Shown here: positions 13,582 through 42,125 of the stretch, piece after piece
Layout: the number at the start of each line of letters is the position of its first letter
Numbering within the stretch: position 1 is the first letter of the stretch
Source: Antedon bifida
Taxonomy: Eukaryota > Echinodermata > Crinoidea > Comatulida > Antedonidae
Reading direction: 5' to 3'
Assembly: GCA_963402885.1 (NCBI GenBank)
Contig: OY727100.1
Coordinates: forward strand, 19,749,665 to 19,813,664
DNA length: 64,000 nucleotides
Position numbers and translations under genes: made by a program
Notes under the pieces: generated by a model
Told to the model about the DNA's origin: nothing
Seen by the model: the letters and a program-made list of their open reading frames with translations, nothing else
Databases searched by the model: none

Positions 13582-13610
13582 GTTGTTGATTAAACTGTTA
13601 TCATCTACAG

Positions 13611-15576
13611 GCATTTATATTTTTGTATATGCATTAATCGGCTGTGTATACGGCGTAACAGTAGATTTGACTGTGCAACCCAGCAATACCATTGTTGAAA
13701 ATCAGATAATTGGATTGAATTGCTCTTTTGAGAGGTCTCGGTCAACGTCTATCCTAGACCCATTATTCTTTTGGTACAAGATGGTTAACGGTAAAAAACA
13801 AGAAATTGGAAAACAACAAGGCTCATACACAGAAGTGTCGGACAAGACAAGAATGGCAATTTTGGATGGTGTTCTTGTGATACATGAAGTAAAACGATCA
13901 GACTCTGGTGTTTACGAATGTGAAGTTTCTATAGTCGATGATCATCCTGTTAAAACCACTGACAGTAGAAATGTCATAGTATTCTGTAAGAAAAACAAGA
14001 TTTGTCTATTAACTATAAGATACTGTACATGTATTATCAGTCTTCCTCAATTAAAATAGGTATGACTTTTATAAGAGAGAAAGAAAATGTTTACTCCTTT
14101 TATTATATTATAAATTTATATTATCTGTCAGTGAACTAATTATTATTTCACTCGTGTGCTTGTCTACAAGAAATGTTAATAATTATATAAATAATACATT
14201 GTATAGGTACCCTAACTGTACATTGTACTATAGAGCTTGTATTATAATTTTAGTTTCAGATGCCCCAAGCATTGTACTTCCTATAACACTGATGGTTGGT
14301 GATGTGCTGGAGATTGTCTGTACTAATAGTAATGCGGCTTATCCAGAACCAGTTCTTGAGATTTACAAAAATGATAAAGCTATAGCTTCTACAAATGGTA
14401 CTGGGACTGAATTAAGTTACACAGCCAATGTAATGGTCAGTGATGCTGGTGATTACTTTTGTAGAGCCAGTAACGAAGCAGGGACAAAGGACAGTCAAAC
14501 AAAGCACCTTAGTGTTCAGTGTGAGTTATTATAAATGTCTACATTTTTAATATTTATCAATGGTTATATAACATATTTTGGATAATTGATTAACTGATAA
14601 ACATTTGAATTTTCATTTTTAGTTATACATACCCCAAGCATTGTGCTAACACCGATGGTTGGTGGTGTGCTGGAGATTGTCTGTACTAGTAATGCTTATC
14701 CGGAACCAGCTCTTGAGATTTATATGAATGGAAAAGGGATAGCAAATGGCACTGGGACTGAATTAAATTACACGGCCAATGTGAAGGCTAGTGATGCTGG
14801 TGATTACTTTTGTAGAGCCAGTAACGAAGCAGGGACAAAGTACAGTCAAACAAAGCACCTTAGTGTTCAGTGTGAGTATAAACATGGAGGGAAAATATGG
14901 TCTATAGAAATGTTGTTTAAATAAGGTAATAAATAAATTGCAGAGATGGTAAACATTCTAAATTATTGTTTCTCTTTTTAGACTGGTGCGATTCTTCATC
15001 AAAAGTCAATGATGGTAGTAAGTTTTCCAGGAATATACACAATTTCAATATGTGAATACTGTAAAATATTTAATATTTATTCTCTTGCAACATTATGATA
15101 TACTGAAAATGCCTAGTTTATTAAAAAAAATAAGCTTTTTATATTTTGCAGAAATGACAATGCTACTTGCTGGAGTCAGTATTTTGTATGGGATTTTCTT
15201 GTTAGTTTTGCCTGTTTGCTTTTGGTTAATAAGTGAGTTTGAATTTGAAGTTAAATTGCTACAGTACCTACTAACTAATTTTTGAAAATCAGCAACATTA
15301 AAATAATCAAGAAAATCAGTCATAATTATTGTATTATATAATGTCTATGCTTTCTTTTTATTTAAAAATGAAACACATTATCAATAACAACTATGAAAGT
15401 GGTGTAATAATGGCCATCTACATATCAAGCGGTTAATAATTTAATAACAGCAACGAGCTTGGCATTAGCCTGTTTATGAACAATCATTAATTTTGATTTT
15501 ATAATGTTAAGTCACATTTATTTTTATTTTTTCAGATTGTCTTCAATATAGAAAGGAACGTAGAAAGGGAATGTGA
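13611..15576 (+). CDS. Ig-superfamily receptor gene A: three Ig domains, one membrane segment, short basic tail
   Basis: Six exons join in phase 1 throughout: 13611-13985, 14260-14520, 14623-14871, 14982-15017, 15152-15232 and 15536-15576 (stop TGA 15574). The first recognised exon begins with a hydrophobic stretch (YIFVYALIGCVYG) that looks like the core of a signal peptide. The start codon must lie in an upstream exon that I could not find. Ig1 is V-like: Cys in LNCSF, Trp in FFWYK, and DSGVYEC. Ig2 and Ig3 are near-copies of each other (DAGDYFCRASNEAG in both) and lack the usual core Trp, having LEIY instead. A 12-residue linker exon precedes a hydrophobic helix (VSILYGIFLLVLPVCFWLI) and a tail of about 14 residues, NCLQYRKERRKGM, with no ITIM or ITAM. 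It is a type I surface receptor by inference. The ligand is unknown. Confidence 0.82.
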
Positions 15577-16411
15577 GGTACTTATTTCTTAACTACTGTA
15601 CTGCAGTGGGCTACAAAACATTGTGTTAAAACACAAACTTGTTTTATTATTTAGGTGGCAGAATACAAAAACTATAGATAACTTGCCATATCAAATTTGA
15701 TAACATTTGATAACCAATACGATGTTGTTCCGATAAGGCCATAATACAAGCAACTTTTAAAAAAATGTACAGTAGGGACAAAATAGTACTTGTTTAGTAA
15801 ATATCTCTCTTCACCTAAAAAAAGGATCGTTTAGAATATAGCGATGAACAATTCTTATTGTTTGGCTTAATTGAAAACATAACTTTAAATTTACCATTTA
15901 ATTTACCATTTGTTTTCTTAATCATTTTGCAGAAATTTAATGATTCTTCCATGTTTCAATACCCTCCAATTAATGTTTTTCATTGACCCTATTTTTCTGA
16001 AATAAGCGTAATAAAATAATAAATGTAACTAAAGTTGTTCGTAGTGCTTGCGCACGTGCAGATCGATTTGTTTACAAAGTGGGTGGAGCTTGCGCGTTCA
16101 GGTTGGGAAATAGCGTTAAAGTTAACGTTTACGTGCTCGTGCAAAAACTCCCTATTATGATGAATATGAAGGTTTTGATGAAGTGGACATTCGTTAATGA
16201 CCTTGTAATCTAGTGCGCGTGTTCACAGCTGGGCAAGAGGTGGTACCAAACAGAGCCATTTAATGGCTCTGATACCGAAGATTATATAGCGCCGCTCGCG
16301 GCGCAAGATAGATAACTGTGCAAGATATACCCATGAACGCCATTTCGGCAGCTTACAAACAATTGAACCGGAATAGGCCTAAGTCGTTGTCAAGGGCAAT
16401 ATCATACGATG

Positions 16412-17242
16412 TTTGCAGATCCTGGGCTGGGGGACGAGCGGGGCATATCTCCGCCACCTATTTGTTTAGGGAGTGGGAGATGGTCTCCCTCACTTTCAAT
16501 GGTAAACCCCAGAATACGCTATTATGTATTTGCTGTAGCATTGTTTTACTTGTTCCATGTTCCTTCCCGTAGATTAAGATCCAAACTCACATTTCATGTT
16601 CCCTTTAGGAGGGTGAATGTCTGTCAAAATGGATTGTTTTGTAGACTAAGTAAATTATATAATTCTCTTTTAGTTATAGATGATGATAAAGTATTTTATA
16701 ATTTTCTAATGCTACCTTTTTTTTGTGGCATTGTTCATGTATTTGTATCCGTTTTGTGTTTACCCTCCTGTTATTGGCGAATTTATTTTGCTGTTGGTTG
16801 GGTTTGGAAATAAATAAAAAATAAAAAAGCTAGTTGTAGCTCTGTGATGTGTGATATTATCACAAATTTCAATAGGCCTACAATTAGGTTGACATGAGTT
16901 CAGAATATCAACACATTGCTTCAACATTCAACAATAAAAATAATAAATGTAGTGCCGTTAATGTATTCGAATAAACGCCCCGCTTTTTTATATATCTAGG
17001 GGTATATATTTGATTATAAATATTACCATATTACATGTTACCCCAGAAAACGCCTCCCTTGAATAAACGACGCCACCCCTCCCCCCCCCCCCCCCCCACC
17101 CCACTCACCTAAAAACCCTCCTGAACAATAAAAGCCCCGAGGTGTATATTCAAATAAATACATATTAATATTACTTTTTATAAATTTATTCCAATAATAC
17201 AAACCTGTAAAAACTACCATGTCGTCATTTATTTTTCTGAAC
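16412..17242 (-). repeat. Right arm of the long inverted repeat flanking Ig gene A
   Basis: This is the reverse complement of 12833-13352. Collinearity is interrupted by a LINE fragment at about 16556-16825 and by a C-rich run (about 17079-17101) with no counterpart in the left arm. Past 17242 the sequence passes directly into inverted units of the 19.3-20.5 kb minisatellite. Confidence 0.85.
16556..16825 (+). mobile_element. LINE reverse-transcriptase C-terminal fragment inserted in the right arm
   Basis: The + strand frame contains TFHVPFRRVNVCQNG followed by LFCRLSKLYNSL. This resembles the end of LINE polyproteins (a VPF-R...N-F-R...WN-L pattern, here with YNSL). The frame ends in a TAA at about 16812 followed by an A-rich tail, AAATAAATAAAAAATAAAA. 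The left arm lacks this segment, so it inserted after the arms formed or was lost from the other arm. Confidence 0.55.
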
Positions 17243-17420
17243 GATCACGTTTAACACTGTTCTCAACTATAGTCATTTTGGTATACTTGAGCACTGCAGT
17301 GATAATTAGGCCTAATAGGATAAACTTAACAATATATAACAAATAACATTAATGTACACGATCCTGTTTAACACTGTTCTCAACTAGTCATTTTCATATA
17401 CTTGAGCACAGTGATAATAT
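17243..17420 (-). repeat. Inverted copy (about 1.5 units) of the 19.3-20.5 kb minisatellite
   Basis: The motifs GTTTAACACTGTTCTCAAC and TAGTCATTTTGGTATACTTG here are the reverse complement of the unit that repeats at 19320-20490. Confidence 0.85.
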
Positions 17421-18410
17421 GAAAAACATAATAACACTATATTATTTGTAGATGAATATGACGCGGTCACGTACATATGTTGATAAGTAATTGATATAAA
17501 TCGACTTTTAAAAGTGGAATTAACACTATTGATTGTAGATGAATATGACGTGAATTGCACGTACATTATGTTGATGAGTAGTATATTGATATAAATCGCC
17601 TTTTAAAAGTGAAATAACACTAATATTTGTAGATGAATATGACTTGGACACGATTTACATAATTATGTTGATGAGTATATTGATATAATTCGACTTTTAA
17701 AAGTGAAATAAACACTAATATTTGTAGATGAATATGACGTGGACACGTACGGTACATAATGTTGATGAGTATATTGATATAAATCGACTTTTAAAAGTGA
17801 AATTACACTATTGATCATATATGAATATGACGTGAATTGCACGTACATGTTGATGAGTAGGCCTATATTGCCTTCGAAAAGTGAAGTAACTGATTTGTAA
17901 ATGAATATGACGTGGACAAGTACATTTATTGATGAGTATATTGATAAATCGACTTTTAAAAGTGAAATAAGACTAATATTTGTAGATTAATATGACGTGG
18001 ACACGTACATATGTTGATGAGTATATTGATATAAATCGACTTTTAAAAGTGAAATTACACTATTGATCATATATGAATATGACGTGAATTGCACGTACAT
18101 GTTGATGAGTAGGCCTATATTGCCTTCGAAAAGTGAAGTAACTGATTTGTAAATGAATATGACGTGGACAAGTACATTTATTGATGAGTATATTGATAAA
18201 TCGACTTTTAAAAGTGAAATAAGACTAATATTTGTAGATTAATATGACGTGGACACGTACATATGTTGATGAGTATATTGATATAAATCGACTTTTAAAA
18301 GTGGAATTAACACTATTGATTGTAGATGAATAAAGACGTGAATTGCACGTACATTGATGAGTATATTGATATAAATCGACTAAAAGTGAAATAACACTAT
18401 CTTGTCCAAG
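17421..18410. repeat. Minisatellite with ~80-100 bp unit
   Basis: About eleven units contain GTAGATGAATATGACGTG, ACGTACAT, GTTGATGAGTATATTGAT and ATAAATCGACTTTTAAAAGTG. Two stretches (about 17812-17990 and 18052-18230) are near-identical two-unit blocks, a sign of recent unit exchange. Degenerate units continue at 18600-18870 after an interruption. Confidence 0.9.
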
Positions 18411-18414
18411 TACA

Positions 18415-18560
18415 TTCACTTGCACTGATAAAGGGCTAGTGTTGCCCGAAAACTCTGCTAACTTTTCTGGCTGTTTTACTTTATCATTTGATTTAGCTTT
18501 TCGCTTCTTTTTTTGTATCTCCATTGGGATCCAGCCACTGATACCCATAGCATTGTTATT
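18415..18560 (+). mobile_element. Dispersed retroelement-like 3' segment
   Basis: The segment includes GATAAAGGGCTAGTGTTGCC and ends CAGCCACTGATACCCATA. A shorter relative lies on the opposite strand at 30637-30710. The element class is not certain; a LINE or Penelope-like 3' end is my guess. Confidence 0.45.
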
Positions 18561-19049
18561 ATTTCAGTATTTTGCCTTTGGATTTACTAATATTAAAAGT
18601 GAAATAACACTAATGACTGTAGATGATATGAAATTTATGTTGATGTATATTTTTGTAAATATAATATGCACACGTACATACGTTGATGGGTATTGATATA
18701 AATAGATTTTTAAAAGTACAGTAATAGACACTTTATTTGTAGATGAATGACATGGACACGTTACAATAAATATTATCGTTATATCGTATGTTGATGAGTA
18801 TTGATATAAATCGACTTTTTAAAGTGGAATAACACTAAAATGTATAAATGGATATGACCTCAACAAGTATTGTATTAAACGGTACTGTATATTGATAGAC
18901 TTCATACCTGTAATGCCAATGAAATCTGGCAACAAGAATTGTGTTTGATCCTAATAGTATTCTAATAATCTTGGTTTGTAAAGGAGGCATGAACAATCTA
19001 AACGCATTATTGCCAGGGGAGGGGTTGGAGTTTCGAACAAAATCCCCTG

Positions 19050-19185
19050 TGCCCGTCCTATGGTTTTTGTGAACTTTTTAGTAGCGTGCAAACGCGACTC
19101 TACAGCTCACTATGTCGGTCGGTCGGTCGGTAAACACCAATTCAAATTTGAGCACGCGACTGCAGCCATGTATAGGCCTATGGCC
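19050..19185 (-). repeat. Dispersed repeat with a CGGT run
   Basis: The minus-strand order is GGCCATA, CATGGCTGCAGTCGCG, a middle part, then CCGACCGACC with GACATAGTGAGCTGTAGAGTCGCG. Related copies lie at 33175-33290 (+) and about 46930-47135 (+), and a 5' piece at 9778-9806. It is probably a short non-autonomous element. Confidence 0.65.
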
Positions 19186-19319
19186 TGTTTATACCAGAAA
19201 TCAGCAGTGAAAGTATATGTAAATAATATGCGTTAATATAGAATTATTTTTTATTTATTTAATAAATAGTATTAAAGTTGATATTTTTCTTTAGCTGTGC
19301 TTAATTATACTCAAATGAC

Positions 19320-20490
19320 TATAGTTTAAAACAGTATTAAACGGGATCATACATTAATGTTATTTTTTGTATATTATTAAGTTTATCCTATTCTTTATCA
19401 CTGTGCTCAAGTATACCAAAATGACTATTATTGTTAAGTTTATCCTATTCTTTATTACTCTGCTCAGGTATACCAAAATGACTATAGTTGAGAACAGTGT
19501 TAAACGGAATCGTACATTAATGCTATTTGTTGTATATTGTTAAGCTTATCCTGTTCTTTATCACTGTGCTCATACCAAAATGACTATAGTTGAGAACAGT
19601 GTTAAACGGGATCATACATTAATGCTATTTGTTGTATATTGTTAAGTTTATCCTATTCTTTATTACTGTGCTCAAGTATACCAAAATGACTATAGTTGAG
19701 AACAGTGTTAAACTGGATCGTACATTAATGTTATTTGTTGTATATTGTTAAGTTTATCCTATTCTTTATCACTGTGCTCAAGTATACCAAAATGACTATA
19801 GTCGAGAACAGTGTTAAACGGGATCATACATTAATGCTATTTGTTGTATATTGTTAAGTTTATCCTATTCTTTATCACTGTGCTCGAGTGTGCTCAAGTA
19901 TACCAAAATGACTATAGTTGAGAACAGTGTTAAACGGGATCGTACATTAATGTTATTTGTTGTATATTGTTAAGTTTATCCTATTCTTTATCACTGTTCT
20001 CAAGTATACCAAAATGACTATAGTTGAGCAGTGTTAGACTGGATCGTACATTAATGTTATTTGTTGTATATTGTTAAGTTTATCCTATTCTTTATCACAC
20101 TGTGCTCAAGTATACCAAAATGACTATAGTTGAGCAGTGTTAAACGGGATCGTACATTAGTGCTATTTGTTGCATGTATATTGTTAAGTTTATCCTATTC
20201 TTTATCATCTGTGCTCAAGTATACCAGAATGACTATAGTCGAGAACAGTGTTAAACGGGATCGTACATTAAGGTTATTTGTTGTATTTTATTAAGTTTAT
20301 CCTATTCTTTATCACTGTGCTCAAGTATACCAAAATGACTATAGTTGAGAACAGTGTTAAACGGGATCGTACATGTTATTTGTTGTATATTGTTAAGTTT
20401 ATCCTATTCTTTATCACTGTGCTCAAGTATACCAAAATGACTATAGTTGAGAACAGTATTAAACTGGATCGTACATTATATCCTTTGCTT
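19320..20490 (+). repeat. Minisatellite with ~105-115 bp unit
   Basis: About ten units share ACCAAAATGACTATAGTTGA, GAACAGTGTTAAACGGGATC, GTACATTAATG and GTTAAGTTTATCCTATTCTT. Because 1.5 inverted units sit at 17243-17420, the region 17.24-20.49 kb has a foldback layout with unequal arms and a different minisatellite in the loop. Confidence 0.92.
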
Positions 20491-21440
20491 TACTGTGCTT
20501 TGATTTGATGAGCAAGTTTGGTTGCCCCGCCCCCATATGCTGCCTACTAAATTAGGATTCCCTAGCTTTTCTATAAAAATTGAAGTACCCACAATGCACG
20601 TTATACGGAAGTTGTAGTCTTGTAAAATACAGACATAATAGTTTTTATCGTATTGTTTTCATTTAAATATCACTAAGATTGTCTCAAACTAAAAACAACT
20701 AAAATTAGTGAAGGTTGCAAGTGTTTCTAAATGTTTACTACTGGTAGTATTAATACAATTTGGATTATATCATTTTCCAGAAAGGTAGAAAAAACATAAA
20801 ATAGTTGAGAATTCTCAACTAGCCAGGATGGTATAGGAAATATAGCTCAAGAATATAGATAGGTAAAGAATCAACAGTACGCGCTGTTATACAAGATAGG
20901 AAACGCGGAAGTGCTTTCCGGTTTTTAGGCGGACCGTAATTAAGTGGTTGTTGGACTTTTTAAATTTTACACATCACATGCTTCGCCAGTAGGGCTGCAT
21001 ATAGGCTAGAAGTCAGTAACAACTAAAAATTAAATTCTTTTTTTCATTTATATTCCGACGGTACCTAGATTTAGGCTTCTAGGCCTATTAATCTACAATA
21101 CACCACCACCGCCAAAAGGTAAACAAATGTCCATGTTTAGTTATGCATGAATCACCACCACGTGCCCTGAACATTTAAAGTTTAAAGATTGAAAACTATA
21201 AGGTCAAATCCCACAATTCTTATTGGTTACACAAAAAATATAATTCGTCACCACCAAGTAGTCGTCGCTGCGAAAATTCATTCGGTTTTTATTCGGTTAT
21301 CTCCGGAACACAATACGCATTCCTCATTGGTTGCTGTTAGTCTATCAAATAGCGCCGAGCTTCCGATGAACACTATAATTTCATTTTTAATTCACCTATC
21401 TTATTTTTAAGGCAGTTTATCAGATGGGATAATTATTTAA
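20491..21440. other. Unannotated stretch upstream of the GSK3 exon
   Basis: No gene or repeat family was recognised. It is less AT-extreme than its surroundings. It may hold the promoter of the GSK3 exon at 21689, but no core promoter element can be assigned. Confidence 0.4.
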
Positions 21441-21688
21441 TAATCTTTGTGAATTTGTAACAAATAAGGCTCTATTAATTCTTAGTATTTGGATTTAAGG
21501 GAAATTCTACACACCGAAAGAACTGTCATTGATTCACTCATCGCGCTAGCTAGGAGAGGAGTCATTCGCGGCTGCGCCTTGTCGACTGGTGGTGTGGCCC
21601 GCCTCTCCGACAACAAAAGGGAGTTACTACTGAACTTAACTAATATTTTTTTGGAATGTAAAATACTTGTAACTGAAAATTATTAATT

Positions 21689-21770
21689 ATGAGTGGAAGA
21701 CCAAGAACAACGTCATTTGCAGATGCTAATAAAGCAGGAAGTTCTTTATACGGAGGATATAAAATTTCAC
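21689..21770 (+). CDS. GSK3: First coding exon of glycogen synthase kinase 3
   Basis: ATG at 21689 opens MSGRPRTTSFADANK and the exon runs for 27 codons to GGYKIS, ending one base into the next codon before a GTAAGT donor at 21771. This matches the known GSK3-beta N-terminus, which starts MSGRPRTTSFAE and reaches KVS followed by Arg with the same phase. Ser9 in its RPRTTS context, the inhibitory site phosphorylated by Akt, is kept. GSK3 is a Ser/Thr kinase of Wnt and insulin signalling. The 5' leader appears to be the stretch from about 21450. The kinase-domain exons were not found downstream. Either the first intron is very long and houses other genes, or this is a detached exon. Confidence 0.75.
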
Positions 21771-23073: not shown

Positions 23074-23154
23074 TTTATAATCTAGGAATTCATGCTAGGT
23101 AAAAGTGATTTATAATCCTGAACTTACTTCATATGTACCAGCATCATTGGACGA

Positions 23155-23300
23155 TGGCCTTTACTTTACTTCTGCTGCCTCTAGCTTATGGAATGACTTA
23201 CCCGCCTCTATTAGGTCGTGTTCTTCCAATTCCACCTTCAAATCTGCCTCATCTTTTTCTTGAGAACTAAGATCTCATACACTGCGCCTTTAATCACTTT
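23155..23300 (+). mobile_element. LINE reverse-transcriptase C-terminal scrap inside the MULE
   Basis: The frame YFTSAASSLWNDLPASIR, then SNSTFKSASSF and a stop, matches the common LWNxLPxxIR...FKxxL ending of CR1/L2-type LINE proteins. It is a fossil only. Confidence 0.5.
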
Positions 23301-25877: not shown

Positions 25878-27397
25878 GGGTATTGCTAAACTGCGCAAAC
25901 TGCGCAAACACTGCGCAAACTGCGCAAACACTGCGCAAACAACAAAAAAAGCTGCGCAAACCTCCTTCAAAACAATTATTATTGATTAGAACACAACTAG
26001 AACTATATAGGGAGACAATTTATGGGAAAACAAATTTGAAATTCCTTTAAGTTTGCCTTTTTTTGGGTGAAAAACTTTAATTTTTGGGAAAATTACTGAT
26101 TTCACAGCGCAAACAACAAAAAAAGCTGCGCAAACCTCCTTCAAAACAATTAATATTGATAGAACACAACTAGAACTATATAGGGAGACAATTTATGGGA
26201 AAACAAATTTGAAATTCCTTTAAGTTTGCCTTTTTTTGGGTAAAAAACTTCAATTTTTGGGAAAATTACTGATTTCACAGCGCAAACAACAAAAAAAGCT
26301 GCGCAAACCTCCTTTAAATCAATTAATATTAATAAAAACACAACTAGAACTATATAGGGAGACAATTTATGAGAAAAAAAATTTGAAATTCCTTTAAGTT
26401 TGCCTTTTTTTTGGGTGAAAAACTTCAATTTTTGGGAAAATTACTGATTTCACAGCGCAAACCCCCCAAAAAAGCTGCGCAAACCTCCTTCAAACCAATT
26501 AATGTTTATTAGAACACAACTAGAACTATATAGGGAGACAATTTATGGGGAAAAAAAATTGAAATTCCTTTAAGTTTGCCTTTTTTTGGGTGAAAAACTT
26601 CAATTTTTTGGGAAAATTACTGATTTCACAGCGCAAACAACAAAAAAAGCTGCGCAAACCTCCTTTAAATCAATTAATATTTATTAGAACACAACTAGAA
26701 CTATATAGGGAGACAATTTATGGGAACAAAATTGAAATTGCTGTATTAGTTTGCCTTTTTTTGGGGGAAAAACTTTAATTTTTTGCGAAAATTACAGATT
26801 TCACAGATTCAAAGGTTTGCGCAAACCCCCAAAAAAGCTGCGCAAACCTCCTTCAAATCAATTAAATTTCATTATTTTTTTTTTATTAATTACTTGCCAT
26901 GATAGTCCTAGTCATGATAGAACCAATAATAAGTGATTTGGAAGAGGTTTGCGCAGGTTTTTTTTGGTTTGCGCGATTTACACTGTAAAATCTGACATTT
27001 CACCCAAAAAATTATGTTTTTCGCCCAAAAAAAAGGCCAACTTACAGCAATTTCATTATTTTTTTTTCATTAATTACTTGCCATGATAGTCCTAGTCATG
27101 ATAGAACCAATAATAAGTGATTTGGAAGAGGTTTGCGCAGGTTTTTTTTGGTTTGCGCGATTTACACTGTAAAATCTGACATTTCACCCAAAAAATTATG
27201 TTTTTCGCCCAAAAAAAAGCCAACTTACAGCAATTTCATAATTTTTTTTTCATAAATTACTTGCTATGATAGTCCTAGTCATGATAGAAACAATAATAAG
27301 CCATTTGGAGGAGGTTTGCGCAGGGTTTTTTTTGGTTTGCGCTTGGTTTGCACTGTTTGCGCTTGGTTTGCGCAGTTTGCGCAGTTTAGCAATACCC
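25878..27397. mobile_element. Foldback-type DNA transposon with tandem-repeat arms and 8-bp target duplication
   Basis: GACATCTA at 25870-25877 is repeated at 27398-27405. The element begins GGGTATTGCTAAACTGCGC and ends with the complement. The left arm (to about 26870) is about five and a half units of ~178 bp, each with TGCGCAAACCTCC and a GTTTGCCTTTTTTTGGG motif. The right arm (about 26880 on) is about three units of the same family in inverted orientation, more diverged. GCGCAAAC clusters mark both tips. There is no coding region. An 8-bp duplication fits hAT-like or related elements. Confidence 0.85.
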
Positions 27398-28385: not shown

Positions 28386-28399
28386 ATTAAATCTAGCCT

Positions 28400-29330: not shown

Positions 29331-29370
29331 TTTGTTAGTAAAAGTATTGATTATTTTCTTTTCTTTCCAG

Positions 29371-32300
29371 TGTTCCCCAGAGGATTTCTTCTTTGTGCAT
29401 TAATCGGCTGTGCATACGGCGTAACAGTAGATTTGATTGTGCAACCCAGCAATACCATTGTTGAAAATCAAAGAATTGGTTTGCATTGTTCTTTTGAGAG
29501 GTCTCGGTCAACTTCTATCCTAGACCCATTATTCTTTTGGTACAAGATGGTTAACGGTACAAAACAAGATATTGGAAGACAACAAGGCTTATACACAGAA
29601 GTGTCGGACAAGACAAGAATGGCAATTTTGGAAAATGTTCTTATAATACATGAAGTAAAACGATCAGACTCTGGTGTTTACGAATGTGAAGTCAGTATAG
29701 TCGATGATGAGCCATCAAAAAACTCTTCCATAGGCGATGTTTCTGTATTCTGTAAGAATGAAACATTTTTTTTCATTTCGTTCCAACATTTAGTATAACA
29801 AGTAAAATACAGTTAATAACATTTCTGGAATTGATATAAAGAAAGCTAAAATAAAAGCTTCAATAAATGTAGTTGACTATTATACTGTATTGATAGCAAA
29901 GCCTTGGCTTTGTTAAAATTATGAATTACAGTTACCGTATGTAACTAACACATTAGTAATTTTGTTTTTAGACCTGGATTCCCCAAATATTAACTCATCT
30001 ACAAATGATGGCATGCTGCAAATTACCTGTACCCGTGGTGATGCTTATCCAGATCCACTCCTTGAAATTTACAAAGATAGTAAAGAGATATTAATGAATA
30101 GTACCGAGACTTTGTTGAAATACTTGGCAATGGTGTCTGGCATTACAAGTTATTATTACTGTAGAGCGAGTAATGAAGCAGGAGAAATAGAAACAAAACT
30201 GATTATCGGTACAAGTGAGTATATTGTTTTTTTTTATTTTTACATTGGTAACATTGTATTGTACAAGCAAGGAGGGCAGTAAGAATTGTAAAAATATAAT
30301 TAATATGGTATTATTAACCTCAACACTTACGACACTAATTGCTTCGTTAAATGTTTGCACATTCAACAAACTATTAACAACTTGTCTATTTTTGAACTTT
30401 TGTTTAGTGATGAAATTCTTCATTCAGTGATTAAAAAAAGGAAGAAAAATAGTACATCGTCTGTTTTCCATTGCTATTGATTAATAATTATATGATATTA
30501 AATTAATTTTGTGTATTCTTGTTCTGTAATATAAATGTAAGAGGATAATACAGGTTTTAATTTCTTTGTAGATCATACATCTCAAACTTATGGCATGTAT
30601 TAATTAAGTATTTATATCAAAATCAAATTGTATGGGTATCAGTGGCTGAATCTCAATGGAGATACAAATAAAATAAGCAAATAGCACTAACCCTTCCTCA
30701 ATGCGAGTAATTATTTATGATATACACTGTATACAAGTATACATGCATATTGAATATAACTTATGCTTGTTGATTATATGGTTGAAAGATACAGTAGCAT
30801 GTTCAGGTTATAATAATAATGCAACGTCATCAATATATTAACTTATTGAAAATCAATAGGCAGTTTATGTTGGTATAATATCAATTTAAATTAAATAAAA
30901 ATATTCATAAGATAACTTCATGAGTTAAAAGATATGTTATAGGCCTATTTCACAAAGTGGAGTTAAGTTGAATAGAACAGTCTAATGAAGTTTAAAAACA
31001 TTCCTACTGCATAGGTTTTAGACAGATTTTCAAAATCTAAGATTGACCATGAGCTGGTCATTGAATATAACCATAGAATGAACAAATTGATTACTGTACT
31101 AAAATGTGAATGTGTGAAAAATGTATGCTCATGTAGACTGATCTTTTCCTCTAGGTTCAACTGTCTCTCCATCCAACGATGGTATGTGTAAAGTACTTTT
31201 CTTTATTAACATACAAAGTAAAATATAAATAATATAATTATTGTATTAGTAATATTATAATTATTGTTATTTTGATTATTATTTATTTATATTCAGACTT
31301 GATGTTGATGTTTTATTTTATAAATGTACTGAAATGGAAATAAAGGTGAATGTATCTCACAAAAGACAAAATCAAAATAACAGTAATAATAATAGCATTA
31401 TCATTATTTATAGAAAAGCCTAGTGATAGCAGTGGCATGGATGATACTAGTAAGTGCAAATACTTTGTTATAAACCTTACGAGTAGAAGAATGTTTTGCA
31501 GACCTCAGTACAATGATACAACAGAAACAATATTTTGGATAATTGATACTCAACCTTTTCCATTATTATCATGTTGTAAAAAAGGAAGCAGTAATCTGTA
31601 TCAACTAACACTATTATTAATAACTATTTGTACTGTTTTTTTTACAGATACAATTATTTTCTTAATTATTGTCATTGTAATCTTCATAATATTCATTTGC
31701 TACATCAGTAAGTGTTGATTTACTTTCAATATACTGTACTTATATTATTTATACATCTCTTTACTATGGTAGTTGTTGTTGTCATCATAACAATTTTTTT
31801 TCATTATCATTGCGATTTAAATTAGTATTTCACACATATTACTGGGTTTATACTGTCAGATATGGACCATTTTATAAGTTCATAATTATTGTTTATTATT
31901 GTATAAAATGGCATGTTATTTAATATCTGATATAACCTTTTCTTCTTTTCAAAACAGCTAACATTACTACAATGAGGAAATTATATCGGTAAGGATTTAC
32001 TTTTACTTGTTTAAATAGTGATTAAATTAAACGAACACATTGTTTATGAATGGTAAAAATCTTAATATGGTTGAAAACTTTCATATGACGCAATTATTTT
32101 GATTTTAATAAATACTTTTGACATAGTAAATAATAACGGTTGAAATTCTTTCTGTTCTTACAACAAAGCAACATGTAACTGTCATGAGCCTTTGCATTTT
32201 AAATTTAATTCACATTTACTCATTTTTAAATCAAAGGAGGTCAAAAGGAATGGTAATTGAAATTGGTGGTTCAAATATTAGTATTACAGAGGAAATAAAA

Positions 32301-35300
32301 AAACGGCTGGAAGCTCTGTAAGTATCTGTGTATATGTTGTCAAATGTTGATATTGATTTGACACTTCATTCAAATTTTAGTAAACTTGTTATACGGTCAC
32401 TATCACTATTTAGATTGCAATTTAACTAAAATCATCATGTTTTTGAGATATTACCTGTCAATTTTACATCTTTGTGATCATTGATCACCATTTTAAACTG
32501 AAAAATGAATATCTGCATCAAGTTATCTGGCGAGATAGGCTTCTTTACAAAAAGAAGCCCAGAGGTTGAGGTCTTGCAGTATATTTAAAATATGTTTAAA
32601 AAGAAGACAAGATTACTGCTAACGTACATTGTTTAGAAACAGATTTAGACTTTAATTTGTTCCAACGACACAATAGTGATTTGACAAACATTTCTGTGTC
32701 ACCTTTTCATTGACTATATTTTTGATTGCAAATAAGAACTTTGCATTTTGTGACATATAGCCATGAAATTTAATTCAGTAGACTATTGGTATGTTCATAA
32801 AATATGCCTACTGTCCTTTTTCCAGGAACATGAATATTAGGTTGGGTGTGGTCTCTGTCAAGTATTTTGGAAGTTTACTGAAGAATAAAACATTGTTATA
32901 AACCTACTTTACTACATAAATACCAATATTATACAGTATAATGAAATACAGTAAAATAATAATTGACAAATTATGACAAAATACTAATGAAATTGGACAG
33001 ATATTGTTAAAACTGTATTAAGAATAAAAAAAAGCTATCCAATACCAACTAGTATAATATTTGATGAAATGACATGATGGATGCCCATGTTAAGTGTGGT
33101 TTGTTTTGAAATCCAAAATGACCACTTCTCCTGGTCAAATTGTTGGCACCCATTTCATTTGATACCCTAATGAACAAGGCCATATACTGTACATGGCTGC
33201 GTTCGCGCGCTCAAGTTAGTGTTTACCGACCGACCGACCAACCAACCGACATAGTGAGCTGTAGAGTCGCGTTGAACGTGACTAATAACTGTACCAAGTT
33301 TTAGAATGTTTTCACAATTTGAAGGATTTACCTCAACTACTACCTGGTTTTAACAAAGTATTATTACTGTAAAGTAAATCTAGGCCTATTATGTGTTTTT
33401 TATAAATATTTTTGTTATATTATTTTTTATTTGAATTAAATAAAACTGTTCTAATTTTTTAAATAGGTTACAGGAGCATGAACAAGAACATGAGGACAGT
33501 TTTTCTTGGTAAGTACCAGGGAAGTACTAATCATCTGTAACTGTAACCTACAAATGGCTTGGTTCAACCTGGTTGTATGTGTTTCTTAGTTAATTTTCTC
33601 TTTAGCTGTGGAAAACTTGTGCCATTAACTTTATAATGGAAGAAGGGGAGTGGTTGCGATAATTAGTTTAGACCTTCATTTGTGAAATTATCTTTTTTTC
33701 TATGGTCAAATGGTCTCTATACTAACTAAATATAGTACATTTCTTGGCTATTTAAAAAAAAAAACAATTCATTTATGTTACAATAACTTTCATTATTCTC
33801 CTATTAATAAAAATCAAGTTTTAAAAATTAAGCAAAGTACGGAATTTTTTATAATACTATATACAAAAAAAAGTCAAATAATATTGTACTTTGTCTCCAA
33901 TTGACAAAATATAGCCTTTGATTGCTCTTGGTCTATGATTTTAATAGCTAGACCTAACCTACCACTACTGTTTTGTGTATAATTTCTTACACCATTTTTA
34001 ATACCAGTTGGAGACAATTTGGCCGGCAAAATTGATCAAAGACAAAATAATATAATATAAAGAGTGTTCACGTTGTAATTAGTGTGCCGGGAAAATGATA
34101 ATTACTAGGCTACAGTGGCATTAAGCAAGTGTAGAAAACACATTTTGTTTATAATTATTAAAAAGGTTAAAAACTCTGGGGGTGAATTCTTGTCTATGCT
34201 CACAACAAAACAACTTCCAATTACCAAAAACCCTGTTTAGATTAACTTCTTATTTACTATTTTCTGATAGCCCACAACATGGACATGCACATGCATGCTC
34301 AACTGGGATGGATGAACCTGGGGAAAATGACTGTTCGTAAGTATGCATTTAATATTGCTTAAAGATTTGTAATTGACATTCTCGTCCATACTTTATTTTC
34401 TTTTGTAAACACATGGAACTTCTGTAGGCCTACTACAGCAGTATACAAATAACGCACAAGTCAGAGTGTGTTAGATGCAGTGCACTTGAGGGTATTTACA
34501 ATGGTGCGACATGCACGACATTGTCAATACCTTGAGTGCGTCGCAAATTGATTTGTATTTATATAAGGAAGCCAAAAAACTTTGTTAATATAGTTTGCTA
34601 GAGCGTGCAGGTAAACCATTTCTGGCTTCCCAACTATAGGGGTTGAAATCCTAAAACAACTTCCAATTGCCATAAAGCCTTTGTAAATTTTTAGATTTAC
34701 TTCTCAATTACTGTTTTCCGACATTTTAAAATTAAATACACATTTTATGATTTACAATTCATAAGCTTTGTATATTTTTAATAGTTCACATTTATTATTT
34801 TTTGATAGCTTAAATGTCTCGGGAGGAAGACTATCAAGTGCGGAAAGGTCGTAAGTATTCTCATAATAGTACTTTGTCTCTACGATGTAGGCTGTTGATA
34901 AAACATTTTAAGGATCCAATATATATTTGTTACTGGTGGTTGCTGGTTGCTCAGTGCAGCGTAATCATGAGTGAGACGCTATCGTGAAATCTCATCCAAT
35001 CTATCCCATTCATTTAGTATGTATAATTTGGGTAGTTCTAGTTCACCATCATCTCTGTTGTGGTATTTTCTTAAATTTTTGGATTCTTTGATTTTCCTGT
35101 CCTTCCGTGAGGATTTAGTGGTTATTGATATACCAAAAGGGGATTTTTAACACTAATTGATTAATGCTTTTGTATGTTAAGATTTACTTATATCATGGAG
35201 AAATAAGTTAAAGTCCTAACTTATTTCTCCATGCTTATATTTACTATAATTTTGTTTAGGAGGTCAGATGGTAGCAGGGAAAGTAAAACAAGTAAGGACA

Positions 35301-38300
35301 CTCTGTAAGTATTTGTGTATATGTTGTCAACTGTATTTAAAATAGATATATTTATTGAATACAGTTAGTACATTTTGTCACTTAGTATAATATACAAATA
35401 AGGAATGTTTATGAGTGCAGTGGTGCAAATAATTTCATGAAGTGAAAGATAAAAGTTTATATTTTTAATTAAAAGGTTTTTGTATTTCAATCGTTCTTGC
35501 AGTTAAAAAACCTGAATTACAACAATCGTTACAATTTATAAAATAGTAAAAATTGAATAAACATAATTATAACATTTAACATTACAATTAACATAACTAT
35601 CAATTACATACAATTACAATTTATAATATATCCAGTATATAAAATACAATTATTAGAATAGCTTGGCAGGTTATTGCTAAACACCGTAAACCTCCCAAAA
35701 AACATAGCAAACCCCATCGAACTAATATAAAAGATACTGAATCGAATAGTTCAAATAAGAATACATTTTTGTTGTTAACTAGGCCTACATATTTTGGGGT
35801 AAAACATCCATTTTTTGGTTTAAAATAATTGCTAAACCATGCAAACCTCTAAAAACACATAGCAAACCACATCGAACCAACATAAAGTTTACTGAATCAT
35901 GTAGTGTAGCCTACTACACACTTGATGTTAATTTTTAAAAAAAGAATACATTTTTGTTCTTAACTACTTACTGATTTTAGGGGTAAAACACCTTTTTGTG
36001 ATTAAAAATTTCTCAACCTCCTTAAAAATAATTGCTTAATTTTTAATTTTATAAATTGTAACATAGCAAACCCCACCAAACCAACATAAAAGCTACTGAA
36101 TCATGTACACACATTTTTTTCAATTTTTTTTTGTAAAAATCCAACTGAACCAACATACACTAAAAAAAGTGTTTGATTTTTGTTGATGTGATTAATGTTA
36201 CTTCTAGATATTTATTGGTTTACATTAGTGGGTAATGTTAGTGGGTGAAGCAACTGTTATTTATTTTCCATTTTTTAGAACCATAGAGGTTACAAAATAA
36301 TTTAGAAAAGTAATTATAATGCCTTAAGAATAGTCTACACTAGCTAACTTTTGTTTGCAAACAAAGTTTGCCACTGAAGAAGGTTGTGCTACTTGAGGTT
36401 CTCCATCTGAAGATGATGATTTTATTTATTTACCATACAAAGTTAACAAATACAAAAAATGCAATCATTTGTATGGTACCAGGTATATAGCCCTCTAAAT
36501 CCAAAAAGGTTTCCGGCTAACCTCAAATGGTCAACCACCAGTAACCACAACCCCCTCCAAACTTGGAGTTTGCTTGTGTAGACTATGCTTAAACCATACT
36601 TTACCGGTTTGTAGTAGAGGTTCCTTCCGTAAGAACGAAATAGATAAAAAGAGACAACAAAGTCAAGATAATGTTGCAATGACTAAAAAGAACTACAGTG
36701 AAAGACATTTAAACAAAGTTGAACATTATCCACAGACAAGTCTTGTAAGTACATAATAAGCCCATAACAAGTTAAACTTTTCAAACGTCTTAAAACAATG
36801 CAGCTAACAATGTATTAAACAAAGTTGCATTTCCTTATAAAATGGAAGTTTCAATTCAATTTAATTTCCACACTAAAACATGATTTGACGTGTCATAGTA
36901 AAAAGTGTAATTTATGGGTTTGATTTTTTTACATTTCATACAGAAAGATAATGAGACCTGCATTCATTTTGATTCATCAATATTGAATTTCTATTATCTT
37001 TTTTTGGTAATTGCAAAAAATGCTAAATCAATTAGTAAAATGCCTTTTTTTTTTCTATTTAGACCTAAACCTTCATAATGTTAGTACATAGCTTTCTTGA
37101 TAGATTACTTTATTATTAGTTTTTACAATTGCTAAATAAATTTAATTTTATTTACATTTTCTTTAACTGAGAGACTACTATTACATTGATGCAGTACTGG
37201 TAGTTGGATTAATATAAAATTAATATCTTGACTGATTTGGCCTATAGGCATTCGACAGGTAGTATGCCTACCTGTAACTTATACAGATTTTTTAGCTGTA
37301 GATCTTATAATTTAGTAAAATGCACTCATGTCTCCAAAATCTGAATAAAATTAATAATAAGATTAAATATTTTGAATTGCTTCAAACGTTACATTGTTTG
37401 TTTGGCAAGAGTACATTGTATACAATGTCATTGTATGCTGATTTTAAACTGCAGTTTTGCATTTCGTTTATTAAGCAACTTCATTGCAATGTTAAAAGCA
37501 TTTATTTCCCAGGCTATAAGGTTTTTATTATTATCTTTTTTTCTATGGTCAAATGGTCTCTATACTAACTAAATATAGTACATTTCTTGGCTATTTAAAA
37601 AAAAAAACAATTCATTTATGTTACAATAACTTTCATTATTCTCCTATTAATAAAAATCAAGTTTTAAAAATTAAGCAAAGTACGGAATTTTTTATAATAC
37701 TATATACAAAAAAAAGTCAAATAATATTGTACTTTGTCTCCAATTGACAAAATATAGCCTTTGATTGCTCTTGGTCTATGATTTTAATAGCTAGACCTAA
37801 CCTACCACTACTGTTTTGTGTATAATTTCTTACACCATTTTTAATACCAGTTGGAGACAATTTGGCCGGCAAAATTGATCAAAGACAAAATAATATAATA
37901 TAAAGAGTGTTCACGTTGTAATTAGTGTGCCGGGAAAATGATAATTACTAGGCTACAGTGGCATTAAGCAAGTGTAGAAAACACATTTTGTTTATAATTA
38001 TTAAAAAGGTTAAAAACTCTGGGGGTGAATTCTTGTCTATGCTCACAACAAAACAACTTCCAATTACCAAAAACCCTGTTTAGATTAACTTCTTATTTAC
38101 TATTTTCTGATAGCCCACAACATGGACATGCACATGCATGCTCAACTGGGATGGATGAACCTGGGGAAAATGACTGTTCGTAAGTATGCATTTAATATTG
38201 CTTAAAGATTTGTAATTGACATTCTCGTCCATACTTTATTTTCTTTTGTAAACACATGGAACTTCTGTAGGCCTACTACAGCAGTATACAAATAACGCAC

Positions 38301-41300
38301 AAGTCAGAGTGTGTTAGATGCAGTGCACTTGAGGGTATTTACAATGGTGCGACATGCACGACATTGTCAATACCTTGAGTGCGTCGCAAATTGATTTGTA
38401 TTTATATAAGGAAGCCAAAAAACTTTGTTAATATAGTTTGCTAGAGCGTGCAGGTAAACCATTTCTGGCTTCCCAACTATAGGGGTTGAAATCCTAAAAC
38501 AACTTCCAATTGCCATAAAGCCTTTGTAAATTTTTAGATTTACTTCTCAATTACTGTTTTCCGACATTTTAAAATTAAATACACATTTTATGATTTACAA
38601 TTCATAAGCTTTGTATATTTTTAATAGTTCACATTTATTATTTTTTGATAGCTTAAATGTCTCGGGAGGAAGACTATCAAGTGCGGAAAGGTCGTAAGTA
38701 TTCTCATAATAGTACTTTGTCTCTACGATGTAGGCTGTTGATAAAACATTTTAAGGATCCAATATATATTTGTTACTGGTGGTTGCTGGTTGCTCAGTGC
38801 AGCGTAATCATGAGTGAGACGCTATCGTGAAATCTCATCCAATCTATCCCATTCATTTAGTATGTATAATTTGGGTAGTTCTAGTTCACCATCATCTCTG
38901 TTGTGGTATTTTCTTAAATTTTTGGATTCTTTGATTTTCCTGTCCTTCCGTGAGGATTTAGTGGTTATTGATATACCAAAAGGGGATTTTTAACACTAAT
39001 TGATTAATGCTTTTGTATGTTAAGATTTACTTATATCATGGAGAAATAAGTTAAAGTCCTAACTTATTTCTCCATGCTTATATTTACTATAATTTTGTTT
39101 AGGAGGTCAGATGGTAGCAGGGAAAGTAAAACAAGTAAGGACACTCTGTAAGTATTTGTGTATATGTTGTCAACTGTATTTAAAATAGATATATTTATTG
39201 AATACAGTTAGTACATTTTGTCACTTAGTATAATATACAAATAAGGAATGTTTATGAGTGCAGTGGTGCAAATAATTTCATGAAGTGAAAGATAAAAGTT
39301 TATATTTTTAATTAAAAGGTTTTTGTATTTCAATCGTTCTTGCAGTTAAAAAACCTGAATTACAACAATCGTTACAATTTATAAAATAGTAAAAATTGAA
39401 TAAACATAATTATAACATTTAACATTACAATTAACATAACTATCAATTACATACAATTACAATTTATAATATATCCAGTATATAAAATACAATTATTAGA
39501 ATAGCTTGGCAGGTTATTGCTAAACACCGTAAACCTCCCAAAAAACATAGCAAACCCCATCGAACTAATATAAAAGATACTGAATCGAATAGTTCAAATA
39601 AGAATACATTTTTGTTGTTAACTAGGCCTACATATTTTGGGGTAAAACATCCATTTTTTGGTTTAAAATAATTGCTAAACCATGCAAACCTCTAAAAACA
39701 CATAGCAAACCACATCGAACCAACATAAAGTTTACTGAATCATGTAGTGTAGCCTACTACACACTTGATGTTAATTTTTAAAAAAAGAATACATTTTTGT
39801 TCTTAACTACTTACTGATTTTAGGGGTAAAACACCTTTTTGTGATTAAAAATTTCTCAACCTCCTTAAAAATAATTGCTTAATTTTTAATTTTATAAATT
39901 GTAACATAGCAAACCCCACCAAACCAACATAAAAGCTACTGAATCATGTACACACATTTTTTTCAATTTTTTTTTGTAAAAATCCAACTGAACCAACATA
40001 CACTAAAAAAAGTGTTTGATTTTTGTTGATGTGATTAATGTTACTTCTAGATATTTATTGGTTTACATTAGTGGGTAATGTTAGTGGGTGAAGCAACTGT
40101 TATTTATTTTCCATTTTTTAGAACCATAGAGGTTACAAAATAATTTAGAAAAGTAATTATAATGCCTTAAGAATAGTCTACACTAGCTAACTTTTGTTTG
40201 CAAACAAAGTTTGCCACTGAAGAAGGTTGTGCTACTTGAGGTTCTCCATCTGAAGATGATGATTTTATTTATTTACCATACAAAGTTAACAAATACAAAA
40301 AATGCAATCATTTGTATGGTACCAGGTATATAGCCCTCTAAATCCAAAAAGGTTTCCGGCTAACCTCAAATGGTCAACCACCAGTAACCACAACCCCCTC
40401 CAAACTTGGAGTTTGCTTGTGTAGACTATGCTTAAACCATACTTTACCGGTTTGTAGTAGAGGTTCCTTCCGTAAGAACGAAATAGATAAAAAGAGACAA
40501 CAAAGTCAAGATAATGTTGCAATGACTAAAAAGAACTACAGTGAAAGACATTTAAACAAAGTTGAACATTATCCACAGACAAGTCTTGTAAGTACATAAT
40601 AAGCCCATAACAAGTTAAACTTTTCAAACGTCTTAAAACAATGCAGCTAACAATGTATTAAACAAAGTTGCATTTCCTTATAAAATGGAAGTTTCAATTC
40701 AATTTAATTTCCACACTAAAACATGATTTGACGTGTCATAGTAAAAAGTGTAATTTATGGGTTTGATTTTTTTACATTTCATACAGAAAGATAATGAGAC
40801 CTGCATTCATTTTGATTCATCAATATTGAATTTCTATTATCTTTTTTTGGTAATTGCAAAAAATGCTAAATCAATTAGTAAAATGCCTTTTTTTTTTCTA
40901 TTTAGACCTAAACCTTCATAATGTTAGTACATAGCTTTCTTGATAGATTACTTTATTATTAGTTTTTACAATTGCTAAATAAATTTAATTTTATTTACAT
41001 TTTCTTTAACTGAGAGACTACTATTACATTGATGCAGTACTGGTAGTTGGATTAATATAAAATTAATATCTTGACTGATTTGGCCTATAGGCATTCGACA
41101 GGTAGTATGCCTACCTGTAACTTATACAGATTTTTTAGCTGTAGATCTTATAATTTAGTAAAATGCACTCATGTCTCCAAAATCTGAATAAAATTAATAA
41201 TAAGATTAAATATTTTGAATTGCTTCAAACGTTACATTGTTTGTTTGGCAAGAGTACATTGTATACAATGTCATTGTATGCTGATTTTAAACTGCAGTTT

Positions 41301-42125
41301 TGCATTTCGTTTATTAAGCAACTTCATTGCAATGTTAAAAGCATTTATTTCCCAGGCTATAAGGTTTTGAGCTAAGATCTTCAATTCTAAAGTCTCGCTG
41401 TCACCATCAACACTTCGTTGCCAGAAAATGTCACATCTATGATTCATTGATAATGCTTATTATGAACATCGAAACCATAATTACCAAGACAAGATATCAC
41501 ATCACACTTTCCAGAGTTTATTTAAAACTCAAAATATATGTTGAATTATTTTATTTTCACATTATTATCTCTCATTCAAAACCTCTATTACGAAACTTTC
41601 TTTTTAAAAATTAACTTACAATTAACTTTTGCTTTAATGGAAAAAATTGTGGAATAGGCCTACTTTTAAAAATGAGTTAATTTTTTGGAAGTTGTTTTGT
41701 GTGTAAAAACTAAAAACTGGTGTTATATTAAGTTATGAAAATATTTTTCAGCATTGTTACTTGTATTATAATATTGATGTTTTCTGTTGCTTATAGTTTT
41801 ATTTCAGTTTATTATTTATTATATTTTTGTTTTACTTGATTCTTTATTTAATAAAAAAGAATCTAAATCTTGAACCACAAAATTAAACTAATATTTCACC
41901 TGCTTAAATTGTGTTTGAAAAAGAACATGTTGCCATTCATATACACATTTATTGCAATTTGTCTCGAATGTTTTCAATAATATGTTTCAGAATGTAGAAG
42001 GCTTACATTATGCTGACTTGGATTTTACACGGCATGCACGTCACTCCAGGAGTTCAAAAGATGACATAATACACACAGAAGAGACTACATTGTACTGCAG
42101 CATAACTCACCATCATTCGAAATGA
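29371..42125 (+). CDS. Ig-superfamily receptor gene B: two Ig domains, membrane segment, long tail with ITIM and ITSM
   Basis: Exons read by eye: 29371-29751 (V-like Ig), 29972-30214 (second Ig), 31155-31181 and 31414-31449 (linkers), 31648-31707 (membrane helix, IIFLIIVIVIFIIFICYI), 31958-31988, 32237-32317, 33467-33508, 34271-34336, 34809-34850, 35260-35304, 36582 or 36618 to 36744, and 41991-42125 (stop TGA). Phases agree at each join: phase 1 to the membrane exon, phase 2 in the tail, phase 0 at the last. Ig1 is almost the same as in gene A (LDPLFFWYKMVNG, RSDSGVYECEVSIVDD). The last exon carries LHYADL, an exact ITIM (LxYxxL), and TLYCSI, an ITSM (TxYxx[VI]), 25 residues apart. It is inferred to be an inhibitory or switch-type surface receptor recruiting SH2 proteins. 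Second copies of four tail exons lie in the duplication at 37.5-41.4 kb. The leader exon was not found. Confidence 0.78.
33175..33290 (+). repeat. Dispersed repeat with CCGA run (copy in gene B intron)
   Basis: It contains ACATGGCTGC, then GACCGACCGACC and GACATAGTGAGCTGTAGAGT. It belongs to the same family as 19050-19185 and 46930-47135. Confidence 0.65.
33685..37527 (+). repeat. First copy of a 3,843-bp tandem duplication in gene B
   Basis: Sequence from about 33685 recurs at about 37528 with a constant offset of 3,843 bases at every point checked, so no insertions or deletions were seen. It holds four tail exons (CPQHGHAHAC, LNVSGGRLSS, RSDGSRESK and NEIDKKRQQ exons). The edges share an ATTATCTTTTTTT stretch, which suggests unequal pairing at a short match. 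Confidence 0.93.
35660..36120 (+). repeat. Degenerate ~180-bp repeats related to the foldback element
   Basis: Three diverged units share ATTGCTAAAC, GCAAACC, AACATAAAnGnTACTGAATC and GGGGTAAAACA. The opening TTATTGCTAAACACCGTAAACCTCC resembles the tip of the foldback element at 25878. The block is present again at 39503-39963 through the large duplication. Confidence 0.6.
37528..41370 (+). repeat. Second copy of the 3,843-bp tandem duplication
   Basis: Tail exon copies lie at 38114-38179, 38652-38693, 39103-39147 and 40425 or 40461 to 40587. The first three are phase 2 to 2, so joining exon 35260-35304 to 38114-38179 keeps the frame if the phase 0-ending exon at 36.6-36.7 kb is skipped. A longer tail isoform is therefore possible. 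Identity ends at about 41370, after GGCTATAAGGTTTT. Confidence 0.93.

Follow-up and report, generated by a model that had tools for sequence, protein, structure and literature searches.

Two linked immunoglobulin (Ig) receptor genes, here called A and B, lie in a 64,000-nucleotide stretch of the genome of the crinoid Antedon bifida (the window; C13:19749665-19813664, contig OY727100.1), and they probably represent the short-tail and long-tail members of a receptor pair that belongs to a multi-copy immunoglobulin superfamily (IgSF) family in an echinoderm and is matched by conversion of the V domain. Vertebrates offer the best-documented cases of receptors paired as activating/inhibitory or decoy/inhibitory, and there such pairing is taken to reflect pressure from pathogens on the inhibitory members. 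The original prediction, made from the letters of the window, had described A and B as such a pair. As a statement about a family it finds backing in three neighbour pairs, in a constrained exon carrying an immunoreceptor tyrosine-based inhibitory motif (ITIM) and a switch motif (ITSM), and in the homogenised first Ig domain (Ig1) of A and B, but not in the classic activating wiring.

Both genes lie in tandem on the + strand, in the same orientation as had been proposed, with open frames, and their exons from Ig1 to the first after the transmembrane (TM) segment are all entered in phase 1. The two Ig1 domains are indeed V-like and closely matched: each scores over the Pfam V-set cut-off of 26 (55.6 bits in A, 33.6 in B), and they share 83% of their amino acids and 323 of 372 aligned nucleotides. 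The proposed match of the ectodomain holds for Ig1 but not for domain number, A having three Ig domains and B two. Opposite tails are likewise present. That of A is short and basic, though of 13 residues rather than about 14; that of B, as had been stated, is a long ITIM/ITSM tail, about 190 residues by exon length and encoded in eight exons, at whose end stand LHYADL and TLYCSI, which we take to be an ITIM and an ITSM by the consensus rules for these motifs. Their tyrosines stand 28 residues apart, and the B sequence accordingly combines a V-set Ig domain, one TM segment and an ITIM and ITSM within a spacing of 20-30 residues.

Six-frame searches of the whole genome (315.6 Mb, 27 contigs) with Ig1, tail and TM queries all converge on a few neighbouring loci (poly-I microsatellite matches were filtered or ignored), and judging by this recurrence the likeness of A and B exceeds chance. 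The Ig1 of gene A yields 14 matches at E<=0.001 and that of gene C10a yields 15; the top six are shared by both queries, and these genes make up three neighbouring + strand pairs, namely A/B, A'/B' (C13:19.678/19.714 Mb) and C10a/C10b (C10:10.625/10.663 Mb). In all three the short member precedes the long one on the same strand. The long tail is recognised by homology in two pairs (B and B'), and in C10b by hand reading only. A' has the TM and tail IKILLAGVSILYGIFLLVLPVYFWLI-NCLEYRKEHRKGM, and C10a the TM TKIVLIGVSGLYGIFLIALPVCFWFI with a tail exon reading YRRNGT after a split codon. The TM of B', read by eye, is KVSIFIMLMLTLVIMIVVVVILWK, and its last exon is 95% identical in protein to that of B. 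C10b shows a TM and two hand-read exons that carry SYYITI and, at a distance of 24 residues, SLYLTL, followed by a stop; the frame of SLYLTL is given by one acceptor in the stretch scanned, and a motif scan of the region in three forward frames gave 55 matches, most of them surely chance. The original prediction had named two findings that would speak against a pair, the absence of a short/long split elsewhere and a pseudogene status of A; the split recurs in the other pairs, and A keeps an open frame, conserved in comparison with A'. These searches support the presence of a family of linked short- and long-tail receptors, which has in common with paired receptors similar homologous ectodomains (A/B Ig1), linkage (3/3 pairs) and, as far as sequence can tell, an ITIM-bearing member (B and B').

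Similarity within the family is distributed as a patchwork. In the V body of Ig1 (alignment blocks 10-109) A and B are identical at 277 of 297 nucleotides, versus 46 of 75 in the blocks at either end, and at the 3' end of the domain A agrees with A' at 43 of 54 nucleotides and with B at 35 of 54. The synonymous distance (dS) between A and B is 0.165 in Ig1 versus 0.90 in the second domain, Ig2 (13/87 versus 28/54 synonymous differences, p=7e-6). Between A and A' it is 0.49 in Ig1, 0.23 in Ig2, 0.13 in Ig3 and 0.08 in TM plus tail (31/86 in Ig1 versus 21/145 in the remainder, p=3e-4). For B and B' it is 0.58 in Ig1 and 0.56 in Ig2, with 0.09 and 0.155 in two of the eight tail exons (55/138 in the Ig domains versus 6/52 in these two exons, p=1e-4), and for C10a and C10b 0.81 in Ig1 and 0.17 in Ig2 (42/84 versus 9/61, p=9e-6). 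These contrasts are Fisher tests on rounded counts with sites treated as independent. Nucleotide trees unite A with B in Ig1 (support 99.7/98), whereas in Ig2 they unite B with B' (98.3/100) and place the domains of A and A' apart from the rest (99/100). Protein trees agree at lower support (72.3/74, 89.5/89 and 96.1/95, respectively), the conflict between Ig1 and Ig2 being strong in the former and weaker in the latter. The simplest reading of this patchwork is gene conversion or an exon-sized exchange, which in A/B would have homogenised the ectodomain in Ig1 relative to Ig2. As the tract in A is barely nearer to B' (216/297) than to A' (211/297), the direction of conversion between A and B is left either way. 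The exon-wise comparison of A' and B' shows no homogenised domain, and matching is therefore not permanent.

As had been suggested, constraint was compared between Ig and tail exons through the ratio of nonsynonymous to synonymous rates (dN/dS). In the last exon of B and B' the ratio is 0.19 (3/104 nonsynonymous versus 4/28 synonymous, p=0.037), and the ITIM/ITSM exon looks constrained; tail exon 7, to which we return below, gives no such sign. Gaps between A and A' are multiples of three in 6/6 cases in the coding parts from Ig1 to TM versus 3/15 in introns (p=0.0015), and the TM exon, with one synonymous and four nonsynonymous differences, offers too few to judge. Together with open frames and splice borders, these in-frame gaps argue against gene A being a pseudogene. 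The idea of pathogen-driven evolution fared worse, positive selection not being shown: Ig1 ratios run from 0.39 to 0.97 in 15/15 comparisons, and those of Ig2 from 0.48 to 1.16, exceeding 1 in only one of 15. That one (C10a-C10b, 1.16) does not depart from neutrality (p=0.84); tests for positive selection covered it and A-B Ig1.

Gene A (12851-15576, + strand) encodes 354 amino acids in an open frame, laid out as a signal peptide split over exons 1 and 2, three Ig domains, a stalk, a TM segment and the tail NCLQYRKERRKGM; in both genes AG/GT is found at all internal exon borders listed. Exon 1 lies outside the span of the original prediction (13611-42125) and was recognised via A'. The features are:

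12851-12866, + strand: coding part of exon 1, start of the signal peptide (MVVFT/G); homologous to A' exon 1, with ATGGTAGTTTTTACAG/GTTTGT common to both
13611-13985, + strand: Ig1 (V-set), by its Pfam match and splice borders
14254-14520, + strand: Ig2; acceptor 14254 picked by homology with A', 14260 being possible too
14623-14871, + strand: Ig3, resembling Ig2 (94% over 135 nucleotides)
14982-15017, + strand: stalk exon
15152-15232, + strand: TM exon, MTMLLAGVSILYGIFLLVLPVCFWLI, conserved in all three short members
15536-15576, + strand: tail exon and stop; the N of the tail spans the junction, and the A' tail is NCLEYRKEHRKGM
16010-16015, + strand: AATAAA as candidate poly(A) signal, the earliest of seven AATAAA/ATTAAA ahead of 17000

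Inverted repeats surround the gene at 12830-13353 and 16415-17241. The latter, downstream of the gene, is an inverted copy of its exon 1 and intron 1, aligning as three pieces at 93-98%, and the only other match, within the 213.7 kb of C13 and C10 stretches tested, is A' exon 1 with the start of its intron. A transposon-borne origin of gene A was rejected on these grounds, the flanking repeats being its own exon 1 and intron 1 and evidence of a mobile element being absent from the 213.7 kb.

Gene B (29371-42125, + strand) comprises two Ig domains, two small stalk exons, a TM exon and the cytoplasmic tail:

29371-29751, + strand: Ig1 (V-set), by its Pfam match
29972-30214, + strand: Ig2
31155-31181, + strand: stalk exon 1
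31414-31449, + strand: stalk exon 2
31648-31707, + strand: single hydrophobic TM exon, TIIFLIIVIVIFIIFICYI
31958-31988, + strand: tail exon 1
32237-32317, + strand: tail exon 2
33467-33508, + strand: tail exon 3
34271-34336, 34809-34850, 35260-35304 and 36615-36744, + strand: tail exons 4-7, first copy
37530-41368, + strand: exact second copy of 33687-37525, repeating tail exons 4-7, with no in-frame addition after the first copy
41991-42125, + strand: last exon with the ITIM and ITSM; stop TGA at 42123-42125
42193-42198, + strand: AATAAA as candidate poly(A) signal, the earliest of six AATAAA/ATTAAA ahead of 43200

The candidate first exon of B' reads MDYMVFT, and splicing exon 1 of gene A onto B would be in phase. 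AlphaFold2 applied to the Ig1 of B alone gave a mean predicted local distance difference test score of 45.4, too low for a fold search.

The membrane helix sets the short members apart. The 20-residue TM cores of A and C10a are identical at 16/20 positions, a value reached by 0/100000 shuffles, while the three long TMs match one another no better than 14-21% of shuffles do (278, 307 and 423 of 2000); the excess of TM identity over Ig1 is marginal (p=0.048, with Ig1 entered as 62/115, from 54%). None of the three short members A, A' and C10a has a charged residue in this core, K/R occurring at the outer TM edge only, and in none was an activating feature found, be it a charged TM residue or an immunoreceptor tyrosine-based activation motif (ITAM) of its own. 

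From the spacing of its ITIM and ITSM, which suits phosphatases with tandem SH2 domains, gene B is likely to be an inhibitory receptor whose phosphorylated tyrosines would recruit an SHP-type phosphatase of this kind; the relation between such spacing and tandem SH2 phosphatases is familiar from PD-1, BTLA, the Siglecs and SHP-2. If gene A is functional, there is good reason to expect that it would bind the same ligand as B, via an Ig1 that one of the two genes copied from the other, and counteract B. The most likely route for this counter-action, although we put it forward tentatively, would be a partner protein held by the conserved membrane helix; action as a signal-free competitor is another route, and a rather unlikely one. 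V-domain gene conversion would keep A and B matched, with membrane and tail exons remaining apart. More broadly, but with less confidence than the pairing of A and B itself, we suggest that these genes may belong to a paired-receptor system that evolved independently of the chordate ones, in which V-set versions with ITIM/ITSM face short-tail or ITAM-like ones at several loci, with a binding domain converted between neighbours of opposite tail and A-type signalling via a conserved, uncharged helix in place of the customary charged-residue contact with an adaptor.

Several observations weigh against a matched pair of opposing receptors. Gene A has no signalling motif, no ITAM and no charged TM-core residue, and a profile search for PF11628 (the CD3zeta/FcRgamma type of chain) gave 18 weak matches with none over the cut-off, its controls being prokaryotic and without a positive one. 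Because ITAM, charged TM core and a CD3zeta/FcRgamma-like chain over the cut-off are all wanting, the classic activating wiring is not seen, and the designation of gene A as activating is unproven. The model of gene B is incomplete at its start, searches by homology, pattern and open reading frame having found no first exon, and its tail contains an exact tandem repeat (3,839 bp, 100% identical, 33687-37525 and 37530-41368, with 4 bp between the copies), which would be either a recent event or an assembly error. When the tail exons of the first copy are followed by those of the second, the frame is lost and stops appear; the transcript must therefore skip exon copies, or the repeat is an assembly error. 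C10b, with its hand-read ITIM exons, has the weakest tail model, and the tail exons of B have no match on C10 at E<0.05. Homogenisation affects Ig1 in one of three pairs (A/B) and Ig2 in another (C10a/C10b), and Ig1 identity in A'/B' and C10a/C10b is 66% of nucleotides each. Tail exon 7 of B and B' has a dN/dS of 1.38 (2 synonymous, 12 nonsynonymous, p=1.0) and no sign of constraint; the A-B Ig1 ratio of 0.84 does not depart from neutrality (p=0.59); and the A-A' comparison beyond Ig1 (45/473 nonsynonymous versus 21/145 synonymous, p=0.09) is weak alone.

Some of these facts would suit a decoy, in which A, itself sending no signal, competes at the surface for ligand and so keeps it from B: its 13-residue tail holds no motif, its TM core is uncharged, and the C10a tail exon offers only the six residues after the split codon. 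A plain anchor, however, needs no conservation of the kind seen in the short TM core, which exceeds composition while that of the long TMs does not, and we regard the decoy as rather unlikely, if the least so of the alternatives. Still less probable appears a single receptor complex of short and long members in which the signal would come from B. Such a complex has been proposed for Botryllus FF/FcoR, where according to the excerpt of PMC12065747 the FF genes each lie beside, and are co-expressed with, an FcoR having a possible ITIM/hemITAM tail. The adjacent same-strand arrangement of all three pairs agrees with this, but two partners so alike in their binding domain are better explained by a shared ligand than by complementary chains, and A and B yield only Ig-type Pfam models at E<=0.001 and no sushi domain, which FcoR has beside its Ig.

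A neutral by-product of chance DNA exchange between neighbours would leave the Ig1 match without a role and A as a little-used side copy. That the pairs differ in which exon holds the tract, and that A-B Ig1 evolves near neutrality, would be expected on such a view, yet coding gaps between A and A' are in frame only, the short TM is conserved, and the A/B tract spans the V domain, with similarity dropping towards the domain's ends; we consider this explanation improbable. V-set and I-set proteins with phosphotyrosine tails serve adhesion too, and among PDB sequences the top matches are to neural IgSF members such as contactins, DSCAM and Robo, as they might be if these were non-immune adhesion or recognition receptors with incidental ITIM-like tyrosines. 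To this, too, we assign a low probability, as multi-copy, diverging and converting clusters, with an ITAM-like cousin cluster (see below), look more like a recognition family.

The preferred reading of A and B as a short-tail/long-tail pair has its closest parallels in vertebrate paired receptors with homogenised V domains (among them CD300A/CD300C, PILR and LILR), which likewise are linked genes with a shared Ig ectodomain and a long ITIM versus a short tail. The likeness is one of layout and does not imply orthology to CD300, PILR or LILR. Activating LILR and PILR members differ in having a charged TM residue, which binds an ITAM chain (excerpt of PMC3533184), unlike the TM cores of A, A' and C10a. 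Botryllus FF/FcoR (fuhc locus) resembles A/B as a system of an invertebrate deuterostome with adjacent pairs, one member of which has no known signalling domain, the long-tail FcoR being able to hold an ITIM or hemITAM (same excerpt, PMC12065747); in A/B, by contrast, both partners share the V domain. Oyster CgIgIT2 and the Hydractinia allorecognition proteins are also invertebrate receptors with ITAM and/or ITIM, but matched short and long members sharing a V domain are not described in the excerpts of PMC11999971 and PMC12065747. Among the matches listed for open-licence literature on ITIM or paired receptors in echinoderms, sea urchins and invertebrates, no title concerned an echinoderm paired receptor. 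The kind of system is known; the host and the uncharged short partner seem new. If true, an echinoderm family with matched V domains and opposite tails, homogenised exon by exon and accompanied by a sister cluster of ITIM/ITSM versus ITAM-like tails, would show the paired-receptor solution arising without an adaptive immune system, and the idea of a counterbalance would be testable by comparison of sister species.

A larger related IgSF cluster (cluster 2) occupies C13:23.20-23.67 Mb, with ITAM-like tails (YQDLx8YVNV, - strand) near ITIM/ITSM exons (+ strand) and V domains 88-92% identical across strands. The two last exons of gene B, used as query, also match C13:23.48 and 23.58 Mb at weak E values (0.8 and 1.6), and these two tails rank 10th and 12th of 13 in that search; four better-scoring matches on C12 and C1 (E 0.12-0.29) were assumed to be chance because of the long frames of 509-699 codons that hold them. 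The tails read NAEGLTYADLDLTR...ETPYASI and NAEGLTYAELDLTR...ETTYASI, then stops, and in a tblastn search confined to the loci under study they match the last exon of B at E 2e-7 and 3e-6 with 43-48% identity. Both keep GLxYA[DE]LDxTR...TxYxSI, and by this pattern carry the same ITIM+ITSM module as gene B. The module from cluster 2 gives 10 matches as a query, the five best on the + strand, of which four lie at C13:23.33-23.58 Mb and one, with TAA inside, on C9. A compact gene on the - strand (C13:23503636-23507374) encodes a V-set-like Ig, a further Ig, a TM and the tail TYQDLQHKVEESAYVNV, which is ITAM-like (YxxL-x8-YxxV) but with V in the last place; in our reading its frame holds only if a weak GT donor downstream of the TM exon is used. 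This ITAM-like tail as query gives 19 matches, all on the - strand: 17 at C13:23.27-23.52 Mb, four of which are the small exon preceding the tail, a single one on C12 and another on C1; stops occur in 2/15 tail rows (TAG on C13, TAA on C1). The compact gene is 88% identical in its V domain and 86% in its second Ig to a + strand gene at 23546572; the next listed ITIM/ITSM exon downstream of the latter is at 23581196, and we infer that the two are joined over 34 kb. A V-domain query from this cluster finds 20 matches, and all but one of the six genes of the A/B family are among them, with identities of 29-34%. A shared V domain with opposite tails hence seems to occur twice in the genome, and the cousin cluster is possibly a better case of paired receptors than A/B.

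Among minor observations, the TM search returned a lone stretch at C15:15156527, ILYGIFIIILPLCFFLFN, which resembles the short-form TM (E=0.018) and was set aside as a relic or chance, the match containing a stop, close upstream of the stretch. The gene directly upstream of A' (C13:19.6755-19.6774 Mb), whose reading resembles the end of what we take to be the flap endonuclease FEN1, is a possible synteny anchor. The mitochondrial contig of the assembly (15,844 bp) agrees with an echinoderm host: in a 4.3-kb piece of it, an ND1 frame translated with AAA as Asn (table 9) shows AETNR and NVEY, which are conserved motifs of animal ND1 that Lys would disrupt, and judged by eye this indicates the echinoderm code. 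ND1 and COX1 are encoded on opposite strands, and the 72% A+T of the piece is near the 72.73% given for the feather star Comaster schlegelii (PMC8820819). Between A and B lie large tandem arrays at 17430-18399, 19429-20478 and 25929-27342, with unit sizes of about 94/252, 106, 175 and 184 bp. Directly downstream of gene B, matches over the cut-off to DOMON and Cu2_monoox_C (44269-44538 and 51816-52121) perhaps mark a copper monooxygenase-type gene, and at 62239-63981 a minisatellite with an 18-bp unit in about 97 copies lies within an open frame of 607 codons on the - strand.

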